DNA from: Polyangiaceae bacterium | GTDB lineage: Bacteria > Myxococcota_A > Polyangia > Polyangiales > Polyangiaceae | Assembly: GCA_022842465.1 (NCBI GenBank) | Contig: JALHPN010000008.1 | Coordinates: forward strand, 1-64,000 | Direction of reading: 5' to 3' | Length of the DNA stretch: 64,000 nt | Shown here: positions 37,403 through 52,359 of the stretch, one piece after another | Layout: each line of letters begins with the position of its first letter | Position numbering within the stretch: position 1 is the first letter of the stretch | Program-made: the position numbers and the translations under genes | Notes under the pieces: generated by a model | Seen by the model: only the letters and a program-made list of their open reading frames with translations | What the model was told of the DNA's origin: nothing | Databases searched by the model: none

Positions 37403-40400
37403 TCAAGTGAGGTCCCGGAAGTCGTGAAGGCCCCGTGCCCCCAGCTCGTTGACGATAGTTCGAACGGCCGGCCGCGCGGGCTCGTGCTTCGCGCAGGCCG
37501 TGAGAACAGTGCGGACCTCCTCGCGCCACGTGTAGATGTGGCTGCCGCTCTCATCATTCAGAAGGTACAGACGGAGGGCTTGGAGCACCTCTCCCGGGTT
37601 CTTCTTGGCGAAGTTGGCGAGCTTCTTCAGCAGGAATGATCCGCCCTCGACGATCGTACCGCCGCGCAGAACGTCAGCCAGGCAGCGCAGCAGCCATAGC
37701 GGATCGAGCTTGCCCGCGACGACCCACCAACCGAACGCCGTCTCCTCCGGGCGCACGGTTTCGATCGGCGTCTTGGCGTGAGTCGTGCGCCGATGGTCCC
37801 AGAATCGCGTGAGCCGCTCGGTCACTTCATCTGGCACGTCCTTTACCCGCCAGAGTCGCCTTCCGATGAACTCCACGAGCTCGTGTCGAGCGTCCGCGGG
37901 CGCCGCCTCAAAGAAGAGGTCGAGCAATCCGTCCTCCCCACCAGGCGCAATCAGCCCGAGCGCGGTCAGCTCCCCTAGGTGCTGGGCCAGACGTTGCCAA
38001 CGCTCCTTGGCACCGAGGTCCGTCGCTGCCGGACGCTTCGGCATCTGCGTGATGGCTGCGCGATAGCGCGGTGCGAGGAGGCCGAAGAGCGCTCGGGTCG
38101 GCCAGTTCCAGCGCAGGAAGGCACCGAAGGCCGCCACGCCTACGTCGTGTGCACCGAAGAGGCGCTCTTCCTGGGTCTCCGACCAACGCGGATCGAGGAA
38201 GTGAAGTACCCCGAACCACCAGCCGAAGATTGCTCGGACAGCAGGAGAGGTCTCTTCGCCGACTCGGGTGGCAACAACATCGCGGAACTCGGGAGGCAGT
38301 CCGGCGTTGCGCCGGTCGCGCGACACCCACCGCGCGTACGAGATGGCGGCTTCGGCGGCGCGCCCCCGAATCGTGTTGATCCCGTGATCCTCGGGGTGTC
38401 GCCACGAGGCAAGGTTCTCCCGTTCGGGCGTCGGGTCCACGTCCTCGAGGAGCACGTGGATTGTTCGCCAGACTGATGGGCGCCGCGCACGGGGGATCTT
38501 CTCCTTCTGCAGCGCGGTGACCAGAAGGTCGGCCACGCTGCTCCGGCAGGACGCCCACGTCGGGTCGCGCGACTCCCATGGCATGACTTCGGGAAGCGGC
38601 TCGTCCGCCTGGCTCACGATCCAGTAAGCGAGTTCGAGGGTCTTCTCCCAATCGACGTTCACCTCGTCGGAGACGAGCGCCTCGCGGACTCCATCGGTGA
38701 CGGCTCGGACATACGCCGGGGCCAACTCGCGAACACGATCTTGCCGCTCGATGAATCGTCCAGGGTCGCGGGCGATCGCCTTCGCGAGCTCCCGGCCGAC
38801 GCCGGCCCGAGAGTGGTCGAGGAGACCTCGCGGCGGAACCCAGGCCCTGAGTCTGTCGATGACGTCATCCACCGCGAGCGCAGCAAGCTCGTCGCTCGAG
38901 AAGGGGCTCGTCGGCCCCACCCAAGCCTCGCCAACGACGGGGCGCGCCCGGACGTCCTCCGGCTCACCGCTCCGGGCGACAGCCTGCAGATACAGACTCT
39001 TGGCGGTCGCGGGCAGCTTCTCGACGATCGGACGCAGTTTTCGGAGCATCCACCACTCGCGGAGCTCCGCTCGCCGTCTGTTCTCCTCCGGTTCACCGCC
39101 AGCGATCTCCTGGAACAACTCCGGGCCGCGGAGCGCCATTCCGAGGAGGCGAGTGCGGTCGGCCTCGTCGACGTCGGCGAACGCTTCCCCGAGAAGGAGG
39201 CCGTACTCCCGCTCAACTTCGTGGTCGAAGAGGAGATCTGCCCGCGTCACCCACGCAACGGCACGCTCGGCGAGCTTCTCCCGCCGGACAGCCAAGACGT
39301 AAAGGGCGATGCGGCGAAAGATGGCGTATGGCCGACGTCGAAGGCTCTCAAAGAGCCATTCGTCCTGCCCGAGGTCGACGAGATGGATCGCTGCATCGCG
39401 GACGGCATCAACCAGCGCATCGAGAATGTCTTCAGTCCAGCCGGCATCCTCGATCGCTGGCCGCCAGCCTGCGGAATGGTCGCGCTCATCGTTCTCGTTG
39501 AGAGTAGACCTCACCGCGGTGTGAAGATGATCCGAAACGAGTTCGAAGAACGTGCGCGCCGAGCATGCCAGCAGCGCGGGGCCACTCTTGGCGAGCGCTT
39601 CGCCGTAGGCTGAGGGCGACAGGCGTGCTCTCACGTCGCGTGCGCGCGATACGGTGTGTTCGCTTTGACCGTTGGGAGCGAACGGTTCGAAGAGGCGGCG
39701 GGCGAAAGCGAGTGCCTCCTTCACGCGACCGGCGAGTGCTAGGTGCGCTGCGACATCCCCGAGGCGGTTCTCAACGAAGGGTCCGACGGGCCTACGCTCC
39801 TCGATCGCCTTTGAGAGTGCGGAGGTAAGCGAAGCTGCCACGTCTGCCGGCAATCGAAGGACCACCGCGAGAAGCGTGGAGACGACGTTAGGGTTCGCGG
39901 GCTTCTGCCCCAAGATCGACTTGAGCGCGACGGCGACCGGCTGGGGCGCTCTGGCTGCAATGCGATAGAGGTATCCGAGCTGGGCCCAAGGAGGGAACCG
40001 CGTAGCTCCGCTGGGTTCTTCGATCGGCTCTGGTGGATTCTCAAAGAACCCCAGTTTCAACAGCGGAGCGAGCCAGCGCGGATCATCTAGTCGCTCGAAG
40101 AGGTACGCGACGTGTTCGGGATGGGCGAGGTGTGATGCGACGATCTGTATCGTTGTCTCTGTCGGCTCGGCCTGCTCGCGAAGCAGGCGGTCGAGATCGT
40201 CGATGGACGTGTAGAAGTCGAGCACGCGCGAGAGCAGCATCTTCTCGAACCGATCAAACTGGTCGAGGAACTCCTGGTCGTTCCGTGCACGGGCCCCCAC
40301 TTCGAGGTGCGTTCGCGCTACGAACCACTTGCCGAAGCTCATCCAGAGTGCGGCGAGCGGAGCTGCCGCAGAGCGGTCGTCTCGGTGCCCGACGAACAAG

Positions 40401-40945
40401 CGGGCCGCGTTGTTGAGGTTGTTCAGCTGAACGTCTTGGTGCGCCTTGATGAGCGCCTCGAGACGAGCACCGGCCGAGGCCGGGAGAAGGTAGTGCAGCG
40501 GCTCGCGGTCGCGCAGTGCTTCAAGCGGCTGCGGCGTGGCTTCGGCCAGAGCACCGACGAGCGGTCGGTACTCGAGACGCGGAACCAGCCGCGGACCCAC
40601 GAGGATCTCAGGGAGACGGTTGCAGATGTCGCGGACGGCGTGCGCGAGGAAGTACTGCCAACCGGGAGGTCGCGGTTCGACGTGTCGTAGCTGCACCGCC
40701 CCGGCGTAGAGCGCGGCGAGATCGGTCTGCTTCTCTGCCAGCGTCTCGAACGCACGGCGGCGTCGCTCCGTCCACCACACCTCACCGGGGAACGGAGGCC
40801 CGGAGGGCTCGCGTGCGCCTCGCGACCTCGTCGAGCGCACCTTCCGTACCGTCGCCGGAGGCGCTGGCGTTCGCCTCACGTTGCCATCGGAGCCCTTCGC
40901 CCTCCGGATCGCTCGGGTCGAACCCTTCGCGTTACGAGCGCTCAC
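37403..40945 (-). CDS. 1180-aa helical protein of unknown function, last gene of R-M operon
   Basis: Single long frame; GTG start overlaps mrr stop by 4 nt; predicted rich in helical repeats. C-term FGWWVVAGKLDPLWLLRCLADVL is vaguely DUF4020-like (unverified). Confidence 0.8.
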   Translation of the reverse strand: MSARNAKGSTRAIRRAKGSDGNVRRTPAPPATVRKVRSTRSRGAREPSGPPFPGEVWWTERRRRAFETLAEKQTDLAALYAGAVQLRHVEPRPPGWQYFLAHAVRDICNRLPEILVGPRLVPRLEYRPLVGALAEATPQPLEALRDREPLHYLLPASAGARLEALIKAHQDVQLNNLNNAARLFVGHRDDRSAAAPLAALWMSFGKWFVARTHLEVGARARNDQEFLDQFDRFEKMLLSRVLDFYTSIDDLDRLLREQAEPTETTIQIVASHLAHPEHVAYLFERLDDPRWLAPLLKLGFFENPPEPIEEPSGATRFPPWAQLGYLYRIAARAPQPVAVALKSILGQKPANPNVVSTLLAVVLRLPADVAASLTSALSKAIEERRPVGPFVENRLGDVAAHLALAGRVKEALAFARRLFEPFAPNGQSEHTVSRARDVRARLSPSAYGEALAKSGPALLACSARTFFELVSDHLHTAVRSTLNENDERDHSAGWRPAIEDAGWTEDILDALVDAVRDAAIHLVDLGQDEWLFESLRRRPYAIFRRIALYVLAVRREKLAERAVAWVTRADLLFDHEVEREYGLLLGEAFADVDEADRTRLLGMALRGPELFQEIAGGEPEENRRRAELREWWMLRKLRPIVEKLPATAKSLYLQAVARSGEPEDVRARPVVGEAWVGPTSPFSSDELAALAVDDVIDRLRAWVPPRGLLDHSRAGVGRELAKAIARDPGRFIERQDRVRELAPAYVRAVTDGVREALVSDEVNVDWEKTLELAYWIVSQADEPLPEVMPWESRDPTWASCRSSVADLLVTALQKEKIPRARRPSVWRTIHVLLEDVDPTPERENLASWRHPEDHGINTIRGRAAEAAISYARWVSRDRRNAGLPPEFRDVVATRVGEETSPAVRAIFGWWFGVLHFLDPRWSETQEERLFGAHDVGVAAFGAFLRWNWPTRALFGLLAPRYRAAITQMPKRPAATDLGAKERWQRLAQHLGELTALGLIAPGGEDGLLDLFFEAAPADARHELVEFIGRRLWRVKDVPDEVTERLTRFWDHRRTTHAKTPIETVRPEETAFGWWVVAGKLDPLWLLRCLADVLRGGTIVEGGSFLLKKLANFAKKNPGEVLQALRLYLLNDESGSHIYTWREEVRTVLTACAKHEPARPAVRTIVNELGARGLHDFRDLT

Positions 40946-41865
40946 ACATCCTCGAAGTAGTCGCCGTCGACCTTTGGAATGCGGAGTGCCTTGTGGCTGA
41001 CACCGATGCCGTAGTCCATCATCAGGGCGGAGAGCTGGGCCCCGTCGACGAGCACGATGCTCCCGCGGGCGCGGCCCGCGGCTTCCTTGGCATCTCGCGT
41101 GAACGCGCTCGTCGTGATGAACACGCCCTTGGACGCGGCTTGCAGCTGTAGTGCGCCCATGAAGCCCTGGACCTCCGGGCTGCCGACCGTGTTCTTCCAC
41201 CGCTTGGCTTGGACGTAAACCTTCTCGAGGCCGAGCCGATCGAGGGAGATGATCCCGTCGATGCCTCCGTCGCCCGAGCCGCCTACGCGCTGGAGATCGG
41301 AGCGACTCGTCCCGTAGCCCATCGCGTGCAGCAGATCGAGCACGAGCTGTTCGAAGAACTCCGGTGGTGCGCGGCCGATGTTCTCAAGCAGATCGCGGCC
41401 GACGCTCTCGCGCAACTCGGCGAGTGCCGCCTCGATGCGTTCCTCGGGGCTCGCCTTCGCGGTGGTCTCGGTCGGCACCGCGGGCGCTGGCGGGACATCG
41501 TCGGGGGCGTCCTTCTTCGGGCGGAGCCTCTGACTGCGGTCGACGTTGGCTAGGCGGTCGATCTCCTCCTCGGAGAGATTCGAGTTCGCGGCGGCGAACC
41601 TCTGTCCCTCCGGGGTGAGGCGCCAGAAGCCCTGTCGCGGGCTACTGGAGAAGCCCGCGCGCTTGAGCCGGTCGTGCGCCCAGCCGTTGCGGTTCTTGTA
41701 GAGCAGCTGCACCCCGCTCGGCACGCGGTCAGCTCGGTCCTCGGCGCTGAGACGAAGCGCGTTGGCAACCGCCTCGTGCGCATCGGCAGTGCGAACACCG
41801 TCGGGGTGCTCGGCAAGGTAGCGAAGAAGCGGAGCGATGAACTGGTCGTAGGTGGGAACGGACAT
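40942..41865 (-). CDS. mrr: Mrr-type restriction endonuclease (N-terminal winged helix + Mrr_cat)
   Basis: YDQFIAPLLRYLAEHPDGV...; FEQLVLDLLHAMGYG...GDGGIDGIISLDRLGLEKVYVQAKRW (D...QAK catalytic motif). Confidence 0.9.
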   Translation of the reverse strand: MSVPTYDQFIAPLLRYLAEHPDGVRTADAHEAVANALRLSAEDRADRVPSGVQLLYKNRNGWAHDRLKRAGFSSSPRQGFWRLTPEGQRFAAANSNLSEEEIDRLANVDRSQRLRPKKDAPDDVPPAPAVPTETTAKASPEERIEAALAELRESVGRDLLENIGRAPPEFFEQLVLDLLHAMGYGTSRSDLQRVGGSGDGGIDGIISLDRLGLEKVYVQAKRWKNTVGSPEVQGFMGALQLQAASKGVFITTSAFTRDAKEAAGRARGSIVLVDGAQLSALMMDYGIGVSHKALRIPKVDGDYFEDV

Positions 41866-41872
41866 GGGAGGC

Positions 41873-42859
41873 TCAACGGGACGGGACCGCACCGAGATCG
41901 ACGCGGTCGGGATGACGGAGCGCAGCGTCGATCACCAGAGAGGTGGCCTCGTTCAGCGTCCGGGCGAGCACGCTAAGAAGCACCTGAGATCGGGGCGATG
42001 TGAGGCCTGCCAGCTTCGCGACTGCGGCGACACACTGCCGATGGTGTCTCTTCTCGATCGAACCGATGTTCTCTGCGATGCGTTCAAGCAATCGTCGCCA
42101 CCGCTGTTTCTCCCAGTAAGCATCGGGCGACTTCCGCAACCACTCGGGCGCGAACCGGGTCAGCTTCCGCGTCGCTCTCTCTAGCTTCGTTTCATCCTCC
42201 CAGCCGACGGCCGTAGGCATGAACAGCGTGACATCTTGCTCGACCCCGCCCGTGATCGGACCCTTCTGGGTCGGTGTCTTCGTGTGGACGATGAAGTCGT
42301 TCCGAAAGTGTCGAAACCAGAAGACGAGCCATCGGAGTGCGGCGGCATGGGGCCGGAGCGCGGCGATCGGCTCGGGAGCGTCAGCTGCATCGAGGCGTTC
42401 TTCAACAAGCGGGAAGAAGGAGATGTCCGTGGGCTTCGCGAACCCGGCGAGTCTCGACACCATGTACGACCACTGGTCGAGCATTACGGCTCCAAAGAGG
42501 AAGACGGCCTCGAGGTCGACGCGGAGCGCGTGAACGAGTTTGCCGATCGAGCGCGATGCCTGCGCGACGTTTGCGGGCCAAGGCACTCCCGCGGGAATAT
42601 CGAACGGGCGCAGAGCCTGGAACTGTGCGTTTGCGCGCTCACGCCGAGCGCGAACGCGGAACATGCGGCGCGTGATCAATGCAAGGTCCTTCGCGCGAGT
42701 GATGACCTCGACCTGGTGGTAATAGAGGGCGTATGGTCCCTTTGGAATCGTGATACCGAGTTGCTGCGTAGTGGGCGGGTTCTCGGCAAGCCGCGTACAA
42801 AGGCTCATGAAGTGCCCCACGATCTCATCTTCGGACAACACGACCAGGTGACCGGTCAC
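41873..42859 (-). CDS. Hypothetical protein with putative HEPN-type RNase motif
   Basis: GTG start overlapping upstream stop; LRWLVFWFRHFRNDFIVHTK contains RNx4H. Confidence 0.7.
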   Translation of the reverse strand: MTGHLVVLSEDEIVGHFMSLCTRLAENPPTTQQLGITIPKGPYALYYHQVEVITRAKDLALITRRMFRVRARRERANAQFQALRPFDIPAGVPWPANVAQASRSIGKLVHALRVDLEAVFLFGAVMLDQWSYMVSRLAGFAKPTDISFFPLVEERLDAADAPEPIAALRPHAAALRWLVFWFRHFRNDFIVHTKTPTQKGPITGGVEQDVTLFMPTAVGWEDETKLERATRKLTRFAPEWLRKSPDAYWEKQRWRRLLERIAENIGSIEKRHHRQCVAAVAKLAGLTSPRSQVLLSVLARTLNEATSLVIDAALRHPDRVDLGAVPSR

Positions 42860-44295
42860 GCGGGCTCCACGTTTGGGACTGATTCGGCACTGGCTTCGTA
42901 GAGCTGTCGTGCCGCGATGAGAGCTCCTTCCGATGGTCCGAACCAATCCGCGCGGCCGGGCCATCCCTGCTCGTCGAGGTCCCACCCGTTTAGCGCACCG
43001 TCGTAGCCGACGTGGCGCAGGAGCACCGCCGCGAGGAGCGCGCGCACGATCCGAATCCTGCGGACGTCGCGCTCGATGACGTAGTCCTCTCCGTCCTTGT
43101 TCATGAGGCCGGTGTGCGCAACGGTGTTCCGTCCTCGGATCTCGCGGAGTGCCTCATCTGGAACCGTCATCCCCCAAGCGTCGAACAAGTTGCGCGTGAG
43201 GCTCGACGTCGTCGGTCGGGCCACGTCCTTCAACTTCGAGTACATGTCGGCCGCCGCGCGGTCGTCGCGAGCGTGGGCCGCCCACATCTCGCGCGTCGTC
43301 TTCAACCATGCTTTCCAGTCAGCCTTGCTGCGCACCAACGGCACCTTGGACGGCGTCAGCCGATTCGCGAGCGCTTCGAGGCCGATCTGAGCAGAAAGGT
43401 ACTGACCGTCCACGTGCCCGGCCGTGGAATCCACGTAGCTGCACGTCGCCATTGTCGTCGGATTCGGAGGCGCGCCGCTGAGGGCGCGTGCCAAGAGCGG
43501 AAAGGCAACGGCGATCCAGGCGTGGTCCCGTTCATCAGGTAGTGGAGGCGCCTGGCTGACGTCTTCGCGGTAGCGGTAGCCGAACGACGCCCCGTACGCA
43601 GCCACGGGCTGATTGTCGGCATCCACACCGATGAGCGTGTCGAGATGCAGAGGCGTTCCGAGCAAGAACTCCAACGCGGCGAAGTCGTGCCAAAGCGGCT
43701 CACGTCCAACGACGGCATCCTGCGTTTCCAGTACAACGACGCACGACCGGGGACCAAAGGCGCCCTTTCGCGTGAGGTGCCAGGTCGCGTTCCCCTGCAA
43801 GCGCAAAGAGTTGAAGCAGCGCGCGCCGTGACCGTAGACGAAGAGGTTGTACGCACGGCGGACGCGCACACCCTTGAGGGCACCGACCCACGCGACGGCC
43901 GCCTTCCCTGTCGACCAATGCCATTCCGTGAACTGCAGCTCTGTCGTGAGCTCCGCTGCGTGCCCTAGCTTGATCGACGTGCCTTGAGTCGTGACGTGCG
44001 CGTGGCGAGCGGTGACGATCGACCCGTCAGCAAGTAGTGCTTCGATGCCGTCGTCGGAATCCTCGTGCAGCCGCCTGAAGTGGCCCTCAAGGGACACGAG
44101 TGCATGGCCCGACTCCTTGATCGTGACCGCGCCTCGCGCCCCCGATCCTGAAGCAGAGGCAGCGCCACGAAGACTCTCAACCGCGGCGAGCGAGAGCGAC
44201 GGGATGTCGGCATGAGCGTGGGCATAGAGCGCGAGGATTGACGCGAGCGGCTTGGGCAGCTCGATCACCTCCGGCCTCGGCTCCGACGCGCTCAC
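42856..44295 (-). CDS. Putative HEPN (ApeA-like C-terminal) protein
   Basis: LREIRGRNTVAHTGLMNKDGEDYVI: RNx3H motif within predicted helical C-terminal domain. Confidence 0.7.
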   Translation of the reverse strand: MSASEPRPEVIELPKPLASILALYAHAHADIPSLSLAAVESLRGAASASGSGARGAVTIKESGHALVSLEGHFRRLHEDSDDGIEALLADGSIVTARHAHVTTQGTSIKLGHAAELTTELQFTEWHWSTGKAAVAWVGALKGVRVRRAYNLFVYGHGARCFNSLRLQGNATWHLTRKGAFGPRSCVVVLETQDAVVGREPLWHDFAALEFLLGTPLHLDTLIGVDADNQPVAAYGASFGYRYREDVSQAPPLPDERDHAWIAVAFPLLARALSGAPPNPTTMATCSYVDSTAGHVDGQYLSAQIGLEALANRLTPSKVPLVRSKADWKAWLKTTREMWAAHARDDRAAADMYSKLKDVARPTTSSLTRNLFDAWGMTVPDEALREIRGRNTVAHTGLMNKDGEDYVIERDVRRIRIVRALLAAVLLRHVGYDGALNGWDLDEQGWPGRADWFGPSEGALIAARQLYEASAESVPNVEPA

Positions 44296-45872
44296 GCTTC
44301 GACCGCCTCCTTGCCGCGCGCGCGTCGTGCGGCGCGCTTGGTGCGACCACCGTAGGCGGACGGGCCAAGTGTCTCGCCCTCGTCAACCCGTTGCCGCCGG
44401 AGCGTCGTTGCCGCCGGCTCGTCGGACGGATCCTGGGGCACGAGGTCTCCCCGGAACGCCTTGCCGAGAACCGAGCGAACGAGCGTCTTCAAGCTCGCGC
44501 TCGCAGCAACGTGGGTCGTGTCCAATCTCTCGACCACTCGCAGCATGTCTCTTGCTCGGGCAACGACGGCCTCCTGCTCAGCGACAGGTGCGAGCGGAAG
44601 CGCCGCCGCTCGCAAGTCGACCAGATGGATGTGGAGCAGGCCGGACCCCGTGGCTTTGAAGCGCTCCTGGAAGAACGGCGACCAGAACGCGAGTTCGAGG
44701 AACTCGCCCATGTCGCGCACTACGGGCTTCACCAATGCGAGCGATACAAAAATGCTGAACACCGCGTCCGTCTTGATGAGCCGCGCGACGCCCAGCGTTC
44801 CGTCCTTGCTGATGAGGATGTCGCCTCGTGCCGGGTCGGTCCGCTTGATGTACTCCTCGTGATCGGCCTGCGTGACGTGGTTCACGTCTGCGAACGAGAT
44901 TCCAGGCCCGGCCGTCAGATTCTTAACCGTGAGGAAGGGGACGCCCTCCGCCACGTACGTCGGCTTCTTGTGAACCCCGTCAACGACTTTCGTCGAGAGC
45001 TCCTCGACGCTCGCCCAGCACCACCCCTCCGGCAGCTCGGGCAGCCCTGTCGTGTCCACCGGCGCGGGCTCGTTGTACTTCGCCTTCCACTTGTCGTCGA
45101 TCGGGGGCTTGCCCTTGGCCTTCATCTTGGCGAGCTCGGACCCCTCCCACCTCTTGCGGCGCTCGGCGCGGATGCGCTCGAGAAGCGTGCTCGCGGGCTC
45201 GACGTTCGGGTTCTTTGCGCGCCAGTCCTTCGTGAGGTCGCCGCGGAAGGCCGCCGCGAGGATCGACTGGCGGAGCTTCTCGAGCAGCGGCGGGACGGTG
45301 TCGAGCGCCTCGCGCGCGCGGCGGTTCCGCGCCTGGAGGGCTTCGAGCTTGGCGACGATGCGGCGCTGCTCGTTAAGCGGCGGGAGCGGCAAGCGCACGG
45401 TGCGGAAGCGCTCGAGGCTCAACTTTTGCTGAGCCACTCCTGCCGTCTGATCAAGGATCTGAGTCCTGACGGGCTCGGCTCTAAAGGCATCGCGGAGGAA
45501 CTCGGCGATGGTGAGCCCCGTATTCGGCGTCAGCTTGATGCAGTCCGCAGTGATGATGGCGGGCGGACGGGTGGACGGGTACACCGCCGTGTCACCCGGA
45601 GGATCGCCCATCTTGGTTACAAGCAAGTCCCCGGGCCGAACGTAGTGCCGCGCCAGCTTTGCCGCTTTCGCCTCATCAACGAACTTGGTTCGAGCATCAC
45701 CGAAGCGCCCGGCGCGAATCTCTCTCACGAAAACGAGAGGGACGCCCTCGGCGCGGTAGTCGGGCACCTTCAGGTCGCTACCGAAGGGCCCAATCGTGAG
45801 CGCATTCGGAACGTTCGCCGCGATCTCATCCGGCGTTGCCCAGGTCCATCCGCGAGGCAGCGTGCCGCTCAC
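44292..45872 (-). CDS. hsdS: Type I restriction-modification specificity subunit
   Basis: Two target-recognition segments with LPLPPLNEQRRIVAKLEAL central repeat and LPLAPVAEQEAVVARARDML distal repeat; GTG start. Confidence 0.93.
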   Translation of the reverse strand: MSGTLPRGWTWATPDEIAANVPNALTIGPFGSDLKVPDYRAEGVPLVFVREIRAGRFGDARTKFVDEAKAAKLARHYVRPGDLLVTKMGDPPGDTAVYPSTRPPAIITADCIKLTPNTGLTIAEFLRDAFRAEPVRTQILDQTAGVAQQKLSLERFRTVRLPLPPLNEQRRIVAKLEALQARNRRAREALDTVPPLLEKLRQSILAAAFRGDLTKDWRAKNPNVEPASTLLERIRAERRKRWEGSELAKMKAKGKPPIDDKWKAKYNEPAPVDTTGLPELPEGWCWASVEELSTKVVDGVHKKPTYVAEGVPFLTVKNLTAGPGISFADVNHVTQADHEEYIKRTDPARGDILISKDGTLGVARLIKTDAVFSIFVSLALVKPVVRDMGEFLELAFWSPFFQERFKATGSGLLHIHLVDLRAAALPLAPVAEQEAVVARARDMLRVVERLDTTHVAASASLKTLVRSVLGKAFRGDLVPQDPSDEPAATTLRRQRVDEGETLGPSAYGGRTKRAARRARGKEAVEA

Positions 45873-47284
45873 GCTCCCAGTTCCTCTTGGAGCGCCTGCA
45901 TCTCCTCCAGCGCGGTCTGGAGCTGCGCGACGATCTCCGCGGCAATGACGTCCGGCTCCGGCAGGTCGGCATGGTCGGTCACGCTGTCGTCCTTGAGCCA
46001 AGCGATGTCGAGGTTCTCGCCGCGCTTCGCGATCTCCTCCCGCGTGAACTTGCGGAAGCGCCCCGCCTCGCCCTGGTCCTTGCGCTTGCTCTTGCCGTGC
46101 GGATCCTCGCCGAACGCCTTCTCGAACTCGGCAAAGTGCGCGCGGGTGAACGGCGTCCGCTTGCCGAAGGACGGCATGTTCGTCCGCATGTCGTAGAACC
46201 AGACGCCCTTCGTGCTCGCCTTGTCCTTCGCGCCGCGCGTGAAGAAGAGGACGTTGGTCTTCACGCCCTGGGCGTAGAAGATGCCGGTCGGCAGGCGCAG
46301 GATGGTGTGGAGATCGCACTTCTCCATGAGGTCGGCGCGGACCTTCTGGCCGACGCCATCCTCGAAGAGCACGTTGTCGGGAAGGACGACCGCCGCGCGG
46401 CCACCGGGCTTGAGCCCGCGGTAGATGTGCTGGAGGAAGACGAGCTGCTTGTTGCTCGTCGGGTACGTGATGTCGTCGCGCGTCGGCCCGCCGCCACCCT
46501 TCTTCGTACCGAACGGCGGGTTCGTCAGAATGACGTCCGCCTTCGGGAGCTTCGCGCCGCTCGGACCGAGGGCGTCGCCCAGCAAGATGTCGCTCTCGAT
46601 GTCATGGAGCATCGCGTTCATGAGCGCGAGCCGCTGCACGTCGGCGACCAGCTCCATGCCGTAGAACGCCTCGCGGCGCTGGAAGTTTTGCTGCTTCGTC
46701 GACAGGTCGAAGTGCTCGTTCGTGTGCTCGTAGACGTAGCGGTGCGCGTTGATGAGAAAGCCCCCGGTGCCGACGGCGGGGTCTTGGACGAGCTCGCCGG
46801 CCTGGGGCTTCACGAGGGCGACCATGCACTCGATGAGCGGGCGCGGCGTGAAGTACTGCCCCGCGCCGCTCTTGGTCTCCTCAGCGTTCTTCTCGAGGAG
46901 CCCCTCGTAGAGATCTCCGAGCCCCTCGGCCTTGGCGCTGTACCAGTCGAGCGCGTCGATGGCCTCGACGACGGTGCGGAGGTTTCGCGGCTGCCGGAAC
47001 GACGTGTTCGCGTTCGCGTAGATCGCTTGCACGCGGCCGGCGCCCTTGCCGCCGAGCTCGACGAGGAGCGTCTTGTAGAACTGGAGGAGTTCGACGCCGT
47101 CCTTCGACGCGAGGTCATCCCAGCGATAGCCGGCCGGGACCTGCTTCTCGGCGCCCGTCTCCTTCGCCATCTTGAGGAAGAGGAGGTAGGTGAGCTCGGT
47201 CACGTACTGGAGGTACGTGATGCCGTCGTCGCGGAGGACGTGGCAGAGGTTCCAGAGCTTCTGAACGATGTCTTGCGTCTTCAT
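45869..47284 (-). CDS. hsdM: Type I DNA methyltransferase subunit M
   Basis: YFTPRPLIECMVALVKPQAGELVQDPAVGTGGFLINAHRYV; DVILTNPPFG. Confidence 0.96.
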   Translation of the reverse strand: MKTQDIVQKLWNLCHVLRDDGITYLQYVTELTYLLFLKMAKETGAEKQVPAGYRWDDLASKDGVELLQFYKTLLVELGGKGAGRVQAIYANANTSFRQPRNLRTVVEAIDALDWYSAKAEGLGDLYEGLLEKNAEETKSGAGQYFTPRPLIECMVALVKPQAGELVQDPAVGTGGFLINAHRYVYEHTNEHFDLSTKQQNFQRREAFYGMELVADVQRLALMNAMLHDIESDILLGDALGPSGAKLPKADVILTNPPFGTKKGGGGPTRDDITYPTSNKQLVFLQHIYRGLKPGGRAAVVLPDNVLFEDGVGQKVRADLMEKCDLHTILRLPTGIFYAQGVKTNVLFFTRGAKDKASTKGVWFYDMRTNMPSFGKRTPFTRAHFAEFEKAFGEDPHGKSKRKDQGEAGRFRKFTREEIAKRGENLDIAWLKDDSVTDHADLPEPDVIAAEIVAQLQTALEEMQALQEELGA

Positions 47285-47871
47285 GTCGTTGTCTCGAGAG
47301 CCTTGATGCCGGCCCGATGCCAGCGGGCGATGTAGCGATCGGCGAGGAGCTCGGGGTGCGCCGCGAGGAACTCGCGGCACCAGCCGACGAGGCCGTCCCA
47401 CGCGCTGGTGGCGTCGACGGGGCGGAGCGACCAACCTAGCTCATCGAGGGTCCAGTTCGACTTGGCGGCGTTCCGTAGCATGGACGTGGTCACCCAGTTC
47501 GTCGGGTCGTCGGCGCCGCCGCGAGCGACCGGCTGCACGTGATCGATGCTCGGAAACAGCTGCCAGAAGGCGATGTGGCTCTCGCTCATCTTCCAGTTCG
47601 GGTGAGCCGGAAACTCTTCCGGCATCACCTTCGAGAGGAGACGGAGCGTGGCGGGGAAGACGAGGCGTGCGCCGGAGTAACGGTCGGTGAAGCGGTCTCG
47701 CAGAAAGACGTGCATCGACTGGAGCTCGGTATAGGCGCGGCCCGCGTTCGCCACGGGGACGAAGGGGTACTCGGCCGTGGCGATCGCTCGCGCCGTGTCG
47801 GGCTCGTTCCGAAGCAGCGCCCCGCAGACGCGGGTCAGCACGTCCGCTGGATCGCCCACGTCAGCCCGCAT
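47281..47871 (-). CDS. HNH endonuclease-like protein
   Basis: FPSIDHVQPVARGGADDPTNWVTTSMLRNAAKSNW HNH pattern. Confidence 0.75.
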   Translation of the reverse strand: MRADVGDPADVLTRVCGALLRNEPDTARAIATAEYPFVPVANAGRAYTELQSMHVFLRDRFTDRYSGARLVFPATLRLLSKVMPEEFPAHPNWKMSESHIAFWQLFPSIDHVQPVARGGADDPTNWVTTSMLRNAAKSNWTLDELGWSLRPVDATSAWDGLVGWCREFLAAHPELLADRYIARWHRAGIKALETTT

Positions 47872-50800
47872 CTTTCCAGACCTCGTCGGCGAGGTCGCCG
47901 AGGACGGCCTCGAGCTTGCCGTCGAACGCCTTGTTCAGGTGCGCGAAGCCGCCACGCGCCTTGAACTCCCCGGTGTCGAGGGCGGCGCGGTCGACGACGG
48001 TCTCGATCTTGAGCTGCGCGCAGATCCGGTCGAGCCACTTCTTCTGCGGCTCGGTGAACTTGCCCGATTGGAGGACGCGCACCCGCGCCCGCTCCACGCG
48101 CTCGGCGTACGGAATGAGGGGCGAGCCGATGGCGAGCTTGCGAACGAACCCAATGATGGTCGCGGCCACGTCCTCGTTCTTCGCCTCGCGCCAGGCCGAC
48201 TGGAGGTACGCCTCGTTGTAGCCCGCCTCGTCGAGGGCGAGCTTCAAGCTCTTGAGGTCCTCGCGGGTGAGGTCGCGCGGGCGCTGGGTGACGACGAGAA
48301 GCGCCGGGAGCTTGTTCAGGTTGCCCTCGATGAATGCACGAAAGTCTTCGAGGTAGTCGACCGGAGGCCGGCTCTGGTGTTTGCCGTAGCCGCGGGTGAT
48401 CTCGCGGATCTCGTCGACGCGCTCGGACACCACGACCTTGTAGGCGCCATTGCCGGTCGCGCGGTCGAGATATGGGGCCAGGGCGGTCTGGCTGGCGAGC
48501 CAGGCGGCGACGTCACCGACGCTCGCGCTCTTCAAGAAGGCGAGCGCCTCGCCCACGGGCATGCCGGCCGCGGTCTCGAACTTCTCTTCCGCCTGGCCCT
48601 TGAGAGCGCGGCGCTTGCGCTGGAGCTTTGCGACGAGCTCCTCGATCGACTCGCGGCGCATCTCCTCCTCTTTGCCGGTGACGATCTCCTTGACGAGCTG
48701 CTCGAAGGTGACGAGCGGGTTGACGACGACCGGCTTCATATCGGTCATGTCCTTGATGGCCGAATAGAGGTCGACGGCGTCGAAGATGCGGAATCGCTCC
48801 TTGCCGATCTCCGGGCAGAGCCGGGTCGCGCGGCCGATCATCTGCTCGTAGAGGATGCGGCTCCGCACGCGCCGCAAGAAAACGAGGTTCGCGATCTTCG
48901 GGACGTCGATGCCGGTGGTCAGCAGGTCGACGGTGACGGCGACGCTGGGCTGTCGCTCGTTCCGGTAGCGGCGGATCGCCTCGAGGCACCTGTCGGTCGC
49001 GCCGGTGATCTTGAGGATGGCGTCGTCGTCGACGCTGCCGTACTTGGCCGCGAACAGCTCCTTGAGCAGGAGCACCACCATGTCGGCGTGCTCGTCGGTC
49101 GCCGCGAAGATGAGCGTCTTTTCGTCCTGCTCGGGATCGATGTGGTTCACGATCTCGCCGAGCACGGCGCGGTTGAACCCCTCGGTGATCACACGCCGGT
49201 TGAAGGCGTCGACCTCGAAGGCGAGCTCGTCGGGTAGCTCCTCCTTGTTCACGGTCTGCGTCGCGCGGTCGAGGACCAGCACCTCCTCGCGGGCCTTGTA
49301 GTGAATGCCGTCCTGCGCGAGCTTCGTGACGATGCGTATCGGCGGCTCGTGATCGACGAGGAAGCCGTCGATGACGGCCTCGCGGTACGAGTACGAGTAG
49401 ACCGGCGCGCCGAAGATCTCGGTCGTGTGCAGCGCGGGCGTCGCCGTGAGTCCGACCTTCACGGCGTCGAAGTGGTCGAGCACGCGGCGGTACTTCGAGA
49501 TGTAGTCGTCCTCGTCGCGGAACTGGAACTCGCGCTCGGACAGCTCGCGGTCGAGGAGATAACCGCGATGACATTCGTCGACGACGATGCAGTCGTACTG
49601 GTCGACGGGCGGGATGTTCTTCTCGCTCTCGTCATCGTGCGGCCCGAGGACGCGCTTTACCATCGCCTGGATGGTGGCGATCTGGAGCTTGGTCTCGCGG
49701 TCGGGCTTGAGATCGGCCAGCTCCTTCACGTCGAAGATGTCCGTGAACGTCTGGAGGTTCTCCAGGCGGAGATCTTTGAGCGCGTCGGCGGTCTGCTTGC
49801 CGAGTGCGTTTCGGTCGACGAGGAAGAGCACCCGACGAAAGCGCTTCGTCTTGAGAAGGCGGTAGGTGAGCCCGATGCACGTCCGCGTCTTGCCCGTGCC
49901 CGTCGCCATCGCGACGAGCAGCTCGCGCCGTCCATCGGCGAGCGCCTTCTCCACCGCGAGGATGGCCTTCCTCTGGTACTCGCGGTCGATGTACGGCATC
50001 GGCTCGACCTCGAGCTTCGCGTGCGCGTCGTCGACATCTTGCTTGAGCAGATCGAGCAGGCCCTCCGGGCTGTACCAGCCTTCGAGCGGCGCGGAGTGGT
50101 TCGCCGCGCGCCGCGCGTCGAGAAACCAGATCCCGCTCTTGGTCTTGAGCTGGCGAAGGAAGGGGCGGCCGTTCGTGGCGAAGAGGAACGGCACGCGGAG
50201 CCCTGGCTCGCCCTTCGCCGGATCACGGCACCACGGACCCCCGGGCGGCGGAGCCTCGTCGCCCTTCACGACGTAGCCGCGGGAGTACCGCTTGGCCTGG
50301 GGGATGACGCCGGCCACGTCCTTGTGCTTTCGCTTCGCCTCGACGACCGCGAGGACCTGGAGCCCGGCGAAGAGCACGTAATCGGCGCGCCCCTCCTTGC
50401 CGTCGACCACCGTCGGCCACTCCGCGATCGCGAGGTTCTTGCCGCGCGTCGGCCGCGCGCCGCGCTCGAACGTCAGATTCGCCGAGTCCGCCTCCCAGCC
50501 GGCCACGCGAAGCTGATGGTCGATGACCTTGCGGGTGGCGGCCTCGTCGAGGACGATCGCGTCACTCGCCTCGGCGGCGCGCTCGATCGCTTCTCGGACC
50601 ACCGGAGCCGGCGCCGCCTCTGCTGCCGCCTGGAGCGCCGCGAGCTCGGCGGCGAGCTTTCGGTTCTGATCCTCGAGCTCCCTCGAGCGCGCTTCGTTCG
50701 TCGTCGTCGCCTTCTCGCGCGCGACCATCTGCTCGGAGGCGAGCGCCTCCCAGATGGCGGCGTCCTCCCGCGCCTTGGCGGCGCGCTCCTCGGCGGAGAG

Positions 50801-51433
50801 GCGGTCCTTCGCTTCCTTCTCGGCCGTGAGCCGTATGGCCTCGATCTGCGCGCGCGCCTCATCGGCCTCCTTCGCGTGGGCGGCGAGCTGCTCCCGGAGC
50901 CTCGCGAGCTCGTTGTGAAGCGCGGGGCTCGCCGCCTCGGTCTTCGTGGGCGCGGTCGGCGGCACGAACGGCCCCGGATCGAACTTGCGGTTGTTGCCGT
51001 AGGTCCGCTGGAACCAGACGCCCAGCTCCCGCGCCATCCGTAGCTGGTGGAGCGCCTCGGTGGCGTCGCCGCGGTTCTCGTGGACGGCCGCGTTCCCGGC
51101 CCGCCGCATGTCGTGAAAGAGCGAGCGCTGGGTCGCTCCGATGACGTTCCTCTCGAACAGCCGATCGACGAGCGTCTGCTGGGTCTCGTTCGGCAGAGGC
51201 AGGAGACCGATCTTCGCGGCCGCGCGCTTGGCGAGCACCTCGGCGAAGAGGCGGAGCTTCGCGATGCTTGTCGGCGGATCGCTCGCGAAGTGCTCCTCGG
51301 CCTGCGTGGCGAGGGCCACGAGTCGCGCGTCGTGATGCGCGAGGTAGGCGAAGTTCGGAGAGGGTTTGCTCGGCACCGCGTCGGCCCCCCGGATCCAGCC
51401 CGGCGAGGGAACCCCTCCGTCCGCCGGCACCAT
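47861..51433 (-). CDS. hsdR: Type I restriction endonuclease subunit R (DUF4145 N-term, DEAD helicase)
   Basis: ELLVAMATGTGKTRTCIGLTYRLL; YDCIVVDECHRGY; GLTATPALHTTEIFG; IGRATRLCPEIGKERFRIFDAV. Confidence 0.95.
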   Translation of the reverse strand: MVPADGGVPSPGWIRGADAVPSKPSPNFAYLAHHDARLVALATQAEEHFASDPPTSIAKLRLFAEVLAKRAAAKIGLLPLPNETQQTLVDRLFERNVIGATQRSLFHDMRRAGNAAVHENRGDATEALHQLRMARELGVWFQRTYGNNRKFDPGPFVPPTAPTKTEAASPALHNELARLREQLAAHAKEADEARAQIEAIRLTAEKEAKDRLSAEERAAKAREDAAIWEALASEQMVAREKATTTNEARSRELEDQNRKLAAELAALQAAAEAAPAPVVREAIERAAEASDAIVLDEAATRKVIDHQLRVAGWEADSANLTFERGARPTRGKNLAIAEWPTVVDGKEGRADYVLFAGLQVLAVVEAKRKHKDVAGVIPQAKRYSRGYVVKGDEAPPPGGPWCRDPAKGEPGLRVPFLFATNGRPFLRQLKTKSGIWFLDARRAANHSAPLEGWYSPEGLLDLLKQDVDDAHAKLEVEPMPYIDREYQRKAILAVEKALADGRRELLVAMATGTGKTRTCIGLTYRLLKTKRFRRVLFLVDRNALGKQTADALKDLRLENLQTFTDIFDVKELADLKPDRETKLQIATIQAMVKRVLGPHDDESEKNIPPVDQYDCIVVDECHRGYLLDRELSEREFQFRDEDDYISKYRRVLDHFDAVKVGLTATPALHTTEIFGAPVYSYSYREAVIDGFLVDHEPPIRIVTKLAQDGIHYKAREEVLVLDRATQTVNKEELPDELAFEVDAFNRRVITEGFNRAVLGEIVNHIDPEQDEKTLIFAATDEHADMVVLLLKELFAAKYGSVDDDAILKITGATDRCLEAIRRYRNERQPSVAVTVDLLTTGIDVPKIANLVFLRRVRSRILYEQMIGRATRLCPEIGKERFRIFDAVDLYSAIKDMTDMKPVVVNPLVTFEQLVKEIVTGKEEEMRRESIEELVAKLQRKRRALKGQAEEKFETAAGMPVGEALAFLKSASVGDVAAWLASQTALAPYLDRATGNGAYKVVVSERVDEIREITRGYGKHQSRPPVDYLEDFRAFIEGNLNKLPALLVVTQRPRDLTREDLKSLKLALDEAGYNEAYLQSAWREAKNEDVAATIIGFVRKLAIGSPLIPYAERVERARVRVLQSGKFTEPQKKWLDRICAQLKIETVVDRAALDTGEFKARGGFAHLNKAFDGKLEAVLGDLADEVWKDAG

Positions 51434-51600: not shown

Positions 51601-52359
51601 TCAACTTGAAGAGGCGGGGGTGCCCTCGGTGCTCGCGCGCCACGGGCTGTCGCAGCTCTGCCGACGGAGCACTCGGTGGACCGTAACCGGGCGCCACTCC
51701 CCGCCTCGCTTGGTGGGCCGGCCCTCGTTCGTGAGCGCAGAGGCGATCGCGCGCAGCGAGAGGCCATGCCCTCGCAGCTCGATGATCCGGTTAACGGTCG
51801 CGAGCTCGTCATCGAGCTTGTACACGAGGAGGCGCCCGTCGGCGTCGCGCTCGTCCGCGCGCGTCCACCCAAGCGCGGGGCGGCCGAGCCGAACCCCCTC
51901 GCGGCGGAGATGCGCGAGCGCCTCGCGTGTCCGCTCGGAGGTCGCCTCGCGTTCCCACTGTGCGACGGACGTCAGAACGTTCAAGACGAGGCGTCCTGCT
52001 GCCGTGCGGGTGTCGATGGCGTCGCCAACGGAGAGCAGGGAGAAGCGCGCGCCGAAGTACTCGTCGACGAGCGTGCCCAGATCGCGAACCGAGCGAGTGA
52101 GCCGATCGAGCTTCACCACGAGCAGCCCGCTCGCGCGTCCGTCCGCGAGGGCCTTGAGGGCGACTTGAAGGCCGGGACGCGCGAGCGTCTTCGCCGAGTA
52201 GCCGGCGTCTTCGATGACGTCGACGAGCTCGAGGTCGAGCGCGAGGGCGTACGCCGCGAGCTTCTGCCGTTGGGCCTCGAGCGACACGCCGCCGTCGGCC
52301 TGACCCTCCGTGGAAACCCGAACGTACCCGATCACCTTTTCCCGTTGTCCGTGCGCCAT
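51601..52359 (-). CDS. Serine recombinase (resolvase family)
   Basis: VIGYVRVSTEGQADGGVSLEAQRQKL; VVKLDRLTRSVRDLGTLVDEYF; recombinase domain follows. Confidence 0.9.
   Translation of the reverse strand: MAHGQREKVIGYVRVSTEGQADGGVSLEAQRQKLAAYALALDLELVDVIEDAGYSAKTLARPGLQVALKALADGRASGLLVVKLDRLTRSVRDLGTLVDEYFGARFSLLSVGDAIDTRTAAGRLVLNVLTSVAQWEREATSERTREALAHLRREGVRLGRPALGWTRADERDADGRLLVYKLDDELATVNRIIELRGHGLSLRAIASALTNEGRPTKRGGEWRPVTVHRVLRRQSCDSPWRASTEGTPASSS

Follow-up and report, generated by a model that had tools for sequence, protein, structure and literature searches.

Gene organization of the hsd operon and its surroundings

The window analysed here is a 64,000-nucleotide stretch of contig JALHPN010000008.1 from a Polyangiaceae bacterium. 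Its minus strand carries a gene run with the 5'->3' order hsdR, a 196-aa HNH-like protein, hsdM, hsdS, a 479-aa HEPN gene, a 328-aa orphan, mrr and a Dsr1-like protein. From upstream to downstream the features are:

51601-52359 (-), serine recombinase at the upstream island edge, where G+C climbs again
47861-51433 (-), hsdR (NF008521, 1496 bits) with an N-terminal DUF4145 (E 3.4e-7)
47281-47871 (-), 196-aa HNH-like protein in cargo slot 1 between hsdR and hsdM (HNH, E 0.0025, below the Pfam cut-off)
45869-47284 (-), hsdM (N6_Mtase, E 2.9e-76), other genomes having relatives of up to 88% identity
44292-45872 (-), hsdS (PADLOC Specificity_I, E 4e-78), its start overlapping the hsdM stop
42856-44295 (-), gene of the predicted HEPN-type protein (479 aa, GTG start), with a beta-rich N-terminal and a helical HEPN C-terminal domain
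41873-42859 (-), 328-aa orphan gene containing RNDFIVH, in GTGA overlap with the HEPN gene
40942-41865 (-), mrr-type restriction nuclease (Mrr_cat, E 5.4e-37; Mrr_N, E 3e-21)
37403-40780 (-), large Dsr1-matching protein, last of the same-strand run (PADLOC Dsr1, E 3.2e-23, profile 292-1215)

Most of these genes interlock. hsdR and the HNH-like gene overlap by 11 bp, the HNH-like gene and hsdM by 4 bp (ATGA), and hsdM and hsdS by GTGA. The HEPN gene has 4-bp GTGA overlaps on both sides, its GTG start lying on the hsdS stop and its own stop on the GTG of the orphan, which ends 7 bp from mrr. With such tight junctions from hsdR to mrr, these genes form by every sequence sign one transcription-translation unit. 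The island has a G+C content of ~65% against ~70% in its surroundings, which together with the bordering serine recombinase is as expected of an acquired island. The DUF4145 on hsdR is itself a domain of known HEPN type. The Dsr1-matching protein, in which no SIR2 domain and no Pfam match at E <= 1 were found, sits behind the Mrr nuclease and is perhaps a sensor whose effector became a separate gene.

For the orphan, no relative turned up in 310 class genomes, in plasmids or in viral contigs, and no counterpart lies beside any homologue of the HEPN gene. Being without relatives, it is possibly a very fast-evolving partner. Its RNDFIVH could have been another HEPN motif, but this reading was dropped, as the gene had no relatives and its profile comparisons were weak and off the motif.

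The first-pass annotation had placed a 479-aa protein with an RNTVAH motif at 42856-44295 in an hsd operon. The frame exists, but it runs on the minus strand (stops interrupt the other one), and the gene indeed lies directly behind hsdS. The protein includes EIRGRNTVAHTGLMNKDGEDYVIERDVRRIRIVRALLAAVLL, the region of RNTVAH, and comprises the following parts:

43591-44268 (-), residues 10-235, beta-rich N-terminal domain (AlphaFold2), a putative region for sensing or partner binding
42994-43518 (-), C-terminal helical domain, residues 260-434, predicted ApeA-related HEPN (hhalign, shuffle controls, models)
43375-43377 (-), codon of E307 (QIGLEAL), candidate second conserved acidic HEPN residue, invariant in 13 homologues
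43114-43131 (-), residues 389-394 (RNTVAH), Rx4H motif of the predicted RNase active site (conservation, ApeA alignment)

No match to the protein was obtained in Pfam, NCBIfam, PHROGs or PADLOC, so the annotation libraries used here overlook its family completely. The Pfam search returned neither an ABC ATPase nor any other domain, in line with the earlier remark that a PrrC/RloC ABC ATPase signature is absent. An AlphaFold2 model (pLDDT 84, pTM 0.85) and a second model (pLDDT 83) are rich in beta structure at the front and, with fair confidence, helical at the back, with the motif at the start of a helix. In Foldseek searches, the C-terminal model matched nothing in the PDB at E <= 0.001, a Csm6 entry standing at rank 32 (TMq 0.36), and the full model gave no significant HEPN match. 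The top matches of the N-terminal half are mostly Hcp or phage tail-tube folds at E 0.026 or worse, none significant, and this model-based resemblance is taken as a lead only.

Conservation of the RNTVAH motif and relationship to ApeA

By itself the Rx4H motif carries little meaning, because it is commonplace in shuffled versions of the 479-aa protein: R[NDH]x3-5H is present in 37% of the shuffles and Rx4-6H in 98.5%. What makes it more than chance is its conservation across homologues. Single-sequence searches of GTDB contigs, plasmids, phages and viral contigs returned zero relatives. Genomes from the phylum and class of the bacterium yielded two good relatives by sequence and then about 12 by a profile built from them, with one further relative in Anaeromyxobacter terrae; those with names are Myxococcota. 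An early match (L004/L007) was discarded because it lay antisense to an ordinary gene. DUF2934, matched by one homologue, was set aside, since neither the 479-aa protein nor the other homologues have it.

Mean pairwise identity across 13 sequences is 28%, and only 9 columns are invariant among the 13 homologues, R389, H394 and E307 being included. The residue after the arginine is N in 10 of 13 sequences and D, G and Q in one each. Ranked by conservation among 381 scored columns, H394 is 4th, N390 18th, E307 19th and R389 24th, with the spacer residues V392 and T391 at 230th and 380th. An Ex3[KR] form around E307 is found in some family members only, and in one homologue (L034) the motif region has diverged and a stretch of the preceding helices is missing. 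Fixed R and H, a following residue that is mostly N or D and a free spacer are the behaviour of a catalytic Rx4H motif. The proposed fit of RNTVAH to the HEPN Rx4-6H motif with Asn after Arg is thus borne out, and a lack of conservation among homologues, named beforehand as evidence against it, is excluded by the invariance of R389 and H394.

The suggested likeness of the C-terminus to those of ApeA-type proteins also held in profile comparisons. The ApeA set comprised two proteins above the Pfam HEPN_Apea cut-off in the phylum and nine plasmid-borne ones (n = 11), all 11 with HEPN_Apea (PF18739) and 10 with ApeA_NTD1 (PF18862). Aligned to this set with hhalign, the family profile gave E 3.3e-5 at full length, over 155 columns within the C-terminal half, and E 2.2e-5 for the C-terminal half by itself. 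RNTVAH lies opposite RNYLTH, and QIGLEA (E307) opposite the ApeA LET motif with its invariant E (AQGLET/AQALET), so that RNxxxH and LEA/LET are both in register. The score was 43.0 against 13.8 for the reversed profile, and column shuffles reached at most 20.1 (200 of one side) and 20.4 (100 of the other). The match persists without the most distant member or without the myxobacterial ApeA, at a weaker E of 3-4e-4; the hhalign probability is 72-77% despite the low P-value, and the comparison is significant with all 11 ApeA sequences but not with two alone. One homologue, moreover, matches PADLOC Cas13-ApeA (E 1.7e-4).

Two more distant proteins (L036 8703-10211 and L044 8095-9573) join the family at the C-terminal half only, forming a subfamily with another N-terminal half and the same HEPN half (RNRPVH, RNHPAH). 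This subfamily matches the family of the 479-aa protein at the HEPN half with E 7e-9 and matches ApeA independently with E 1.9e-4.

At the Pfam cut-off, HEPN_Apea matched neither the 479-aa protein nor 13 homologues, ApeA_NTD1 had no match in the protein or its homologues, and the N-terminal profile showed no detectable similarity to the N-terminal half of ApeA (E 0.22). Against PDB sequences, the C-terminal profile scored best with Csm6 (6tug), aligned at RNKVAH, but not significantly (E 0.37). Taken together, the profile comparisons support homology between the C-terminal half and the HEPN domain of ApeA, while the four-helix up-down bundle of HEPN is a candidate fold for this half, which is helical in the models but has no significant Foldseek match in the PDB.

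Genomic contexts of the relatives and cargo slots of the hsd backbone

The relatives occur in varied defence neighbourhoods. One is split over two contig ends (L037 1-489 and L030 3-923) with 11 bases in common, flanked by DrmD and DrmMI on one side and by DrmA, DrmB, DrmC and a UvrD-like helicase on the other; judged from the matching gene halves, the contigs would join and the relative would lie inside one DISARM operon. Another shows a 4-bp overlap with an Avs2/PDC-M54A-like NTPase near a DruE-like helicase, and a third a 4-bp overlap with a PIN-domain gene. Further relatives adjoin a SIR2_2 protein or are separated by 9 bp from one with Mrr_cat, and for several no defence partner was recognised. 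A type I operon was seen only once, around the gene of the window, and for none of the relatives detected.

Of 300 class genomes, 53 have the same hsdRMS backbone by the threshold applied, with HsdM identities of up to 88%. The HEPN gene was found in none of the 20 hsd loci inspected, some of whose contigs end near the operon. The cargo positions elsewhere hold GIY-YIG/DUF4357, a HipA-like kinase, an AAA/AbiEii-type ATPase, DUF4917 (SIR2-like), a KAP NTPase, Schlafen, Mrr or Abi_C. Given the varied contexts of the relatives and the varied hsd cargo, the HEPN gene is best regarded as one of the cargoes of an exchangeable slot.

In the hsd backbone of loci L068-L087 there are two cargo positions, the gap between hsdR and hsdM and the place behind hsdS, and their contents differ by genome. 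In L087 an Abi_C protein with RNRISDGH (1342-2163, -) stands directly behind hsdS, where the window has the HEPN gene; a profile comparison between it and the HEPN family detected no similarity.

Predicted role of the HEPN-type protein and alternative explanations

HEPN enzymes cleave RNA as dimers via a conserved R and H (PMC3710099; Tha, PMC11087260), and at least 16 HEPN clades are associated with R-M systems (PMC3710099). We consider it probable, at about two chances in three, that the 479-aa protein is a two-part abortive-infection RNase with an ApeA-type HEPN C-terminus and a beta-rich N-terminus, carried as second-line defence cargo. The best reading is that it represents a new family of ApeA-related HEPN RNases with a putative sensor domain of its own, acting as a back-up suicide effector and probably serving as an exchangeable emergency weapon that halts phage spread by RNA destruction. 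The HEPN domain would pair with a second copy, and R389, N390 and H394 of both, helped by E307, would form a metal-independent RNA-cutting site. The beta-rich half, for which the sensor role raised in the earlier annotation is plausible, would keep the RNase silent until it recognised a sign of infection such as a phage protein or a DNA-breakdown product; the activated enzyme would then cleave tRNA or bulk RNA of the cell and stop phage production at the cell's expense. The gene sits in the cargo slot behind hsdS of the type I operon and would act as a second line of defence, to which the operon would contribute only co-inheritance and co-expression.

Since DISARM and other operons carry relatives, the trigger need not be the restriction enzyme. 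Those relatives presumably work with partners of very different kinds, which makes it simplest to suppose that the N-terminal half of the protein itself reads the trigger. Candidate triggers are DNA-breakdown products and phage structural proteins, the former suggested by the title of a 2026 preprint cited in PMC13405049, according to which deoxydinucleotides activate ApeA.

An alternative is a guard of the PrrC kind, in which the HsdR/M/S complex, with the N-terminal half docked on it, would hold the HEPN RNase inactive until a phage protein that inhibits or overwhelms the restriction enzyme set it free. PrrC, the HEPN anticodon nuclease found with PrrI, is likewise encoded within a type I hsd operon, and Anantharaman et al. 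suggested this analogy for R-M-linked HEPN proteins generally (PMC3710099); the 4-bp overlap couples the present gene directly to hsdS, and in L087 the corresponding place is taken by Abi_C. However, PrrC has an N-terminal ABC ATPase where the 479-aa protein has a beta-rich domain and no ATPase of that kind, the relatives are found in DISARM, NTPase, PIN, SIR2, Mrr or partnerless contexts and are not tied to hsd operons, and there are closely similar hsd backbones (HsdM 84-88% identical) that lack the HEPN gene. This explanation is therefore weakened, and we regard it as unlikely. A toxin-antitoxin pair, with the HEPN protein as toxin and the overlapping 328-aa orphan (41873-42859) as antitoxin, would agree with the GTGA overlap between the two genes and with the common occurrence of HEPN toxins next to a partner antitoxin (PMC3710099). 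The orphan accompanies no relative, which makes it an unlikely antitoxin; it has no relatives of its own in the class genomes, plasmids and viral contigs, the relatives of the HEPN gene have different neighbours, and the orphan resembles no nucleotidyltransferase antitoxin. Such a pair thus appears very improbable.

The remaining alternatives concern the protein itself. Catalysis has been lost in some HEPN families (PMC3710099), and the fold and activity of the HEPN half are predicted, with no significant Foldseek match, so that the domain might be inactive and serve as a structural subunit of a defence complex, binding nucleic acid or a nucleotide without cutting. The invariant R and H, the N or D next to R in most homologues and the free spacer form the pattern of a catalytic site and argue against this, and we judge it quite improbable. 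A chance occurrence of Rx4H in a helical protein unrelated to HEPN, as the motif's frequency in shuffled sequence and the lack of a significant structural match in the PDB (Foldseek) might suggest, is close to refuted, with a motif invariant at 28% mean identity and an ApeA profile match that has both motifs in register and lies far above the shuffles. It is also conceivable, though a long shot, that the N-terminal half is a decoy subunit with a tail-tube/Hcp-like fold, which would co-assemble with the tail tube of the infecting phage, pair the HEPN domains and trigger RNA destruction.

Several known systems come close to the 479-aa protein. ApeA has a similar length (~465 aa) and also combines an N-terminal domain with a C-terminal HEPN bearing RN-x3-H and an upstream LE[AT] helix, the C-terminal halves being homologous by profile comparison, and ApeA is likewise on record in R-M operons (PMC3710099). 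The two differ in that the Pfam ApeA domains are absent from the present family, the N-terminal halves are dissimilar and the family's context is hsd, DISARM and other operons. Tha, a tail-activated anti-phage HEPN RNase (PMC11087260), similarly places a C-terminal Rx4H HEPN (R265NSIMH270, dimer predicted) behind a separate N-terminal region and is a single-gene abortive effector; compared by description only, it differs in being 301 aa long and prophage-encoded, with an overlapping antisense inhibitor gene. Csm6, the type III CRISPR HEPN RNase (6tug), shares an RNxVAH motif followed by an [IV]RT[ML]L helix at the non-significant E value given above, whereas no CARF domain was detected in the 479-aa protein and no CRISPR context was seen.

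The family is new but of a known kind. The concept of HEPN RNase effectors linked to operons for restriction and other defences dates from 2013 (PMC3710099) and was extended to BREX in 2026 (PMC12839542). It adds an unrecognised HEPN effector family, with a new N-terminal domain, to those that move between restriction, DISARM and NTPase-type operons. As the HEPN halves are homologous and the front halves are not, comparison with ApeA would reveal the infection-sensing part, and as some relatives are coupled to DNA-degrading systems, DNA-breakdown products as the trigger of a back-up RNase are directly testable.
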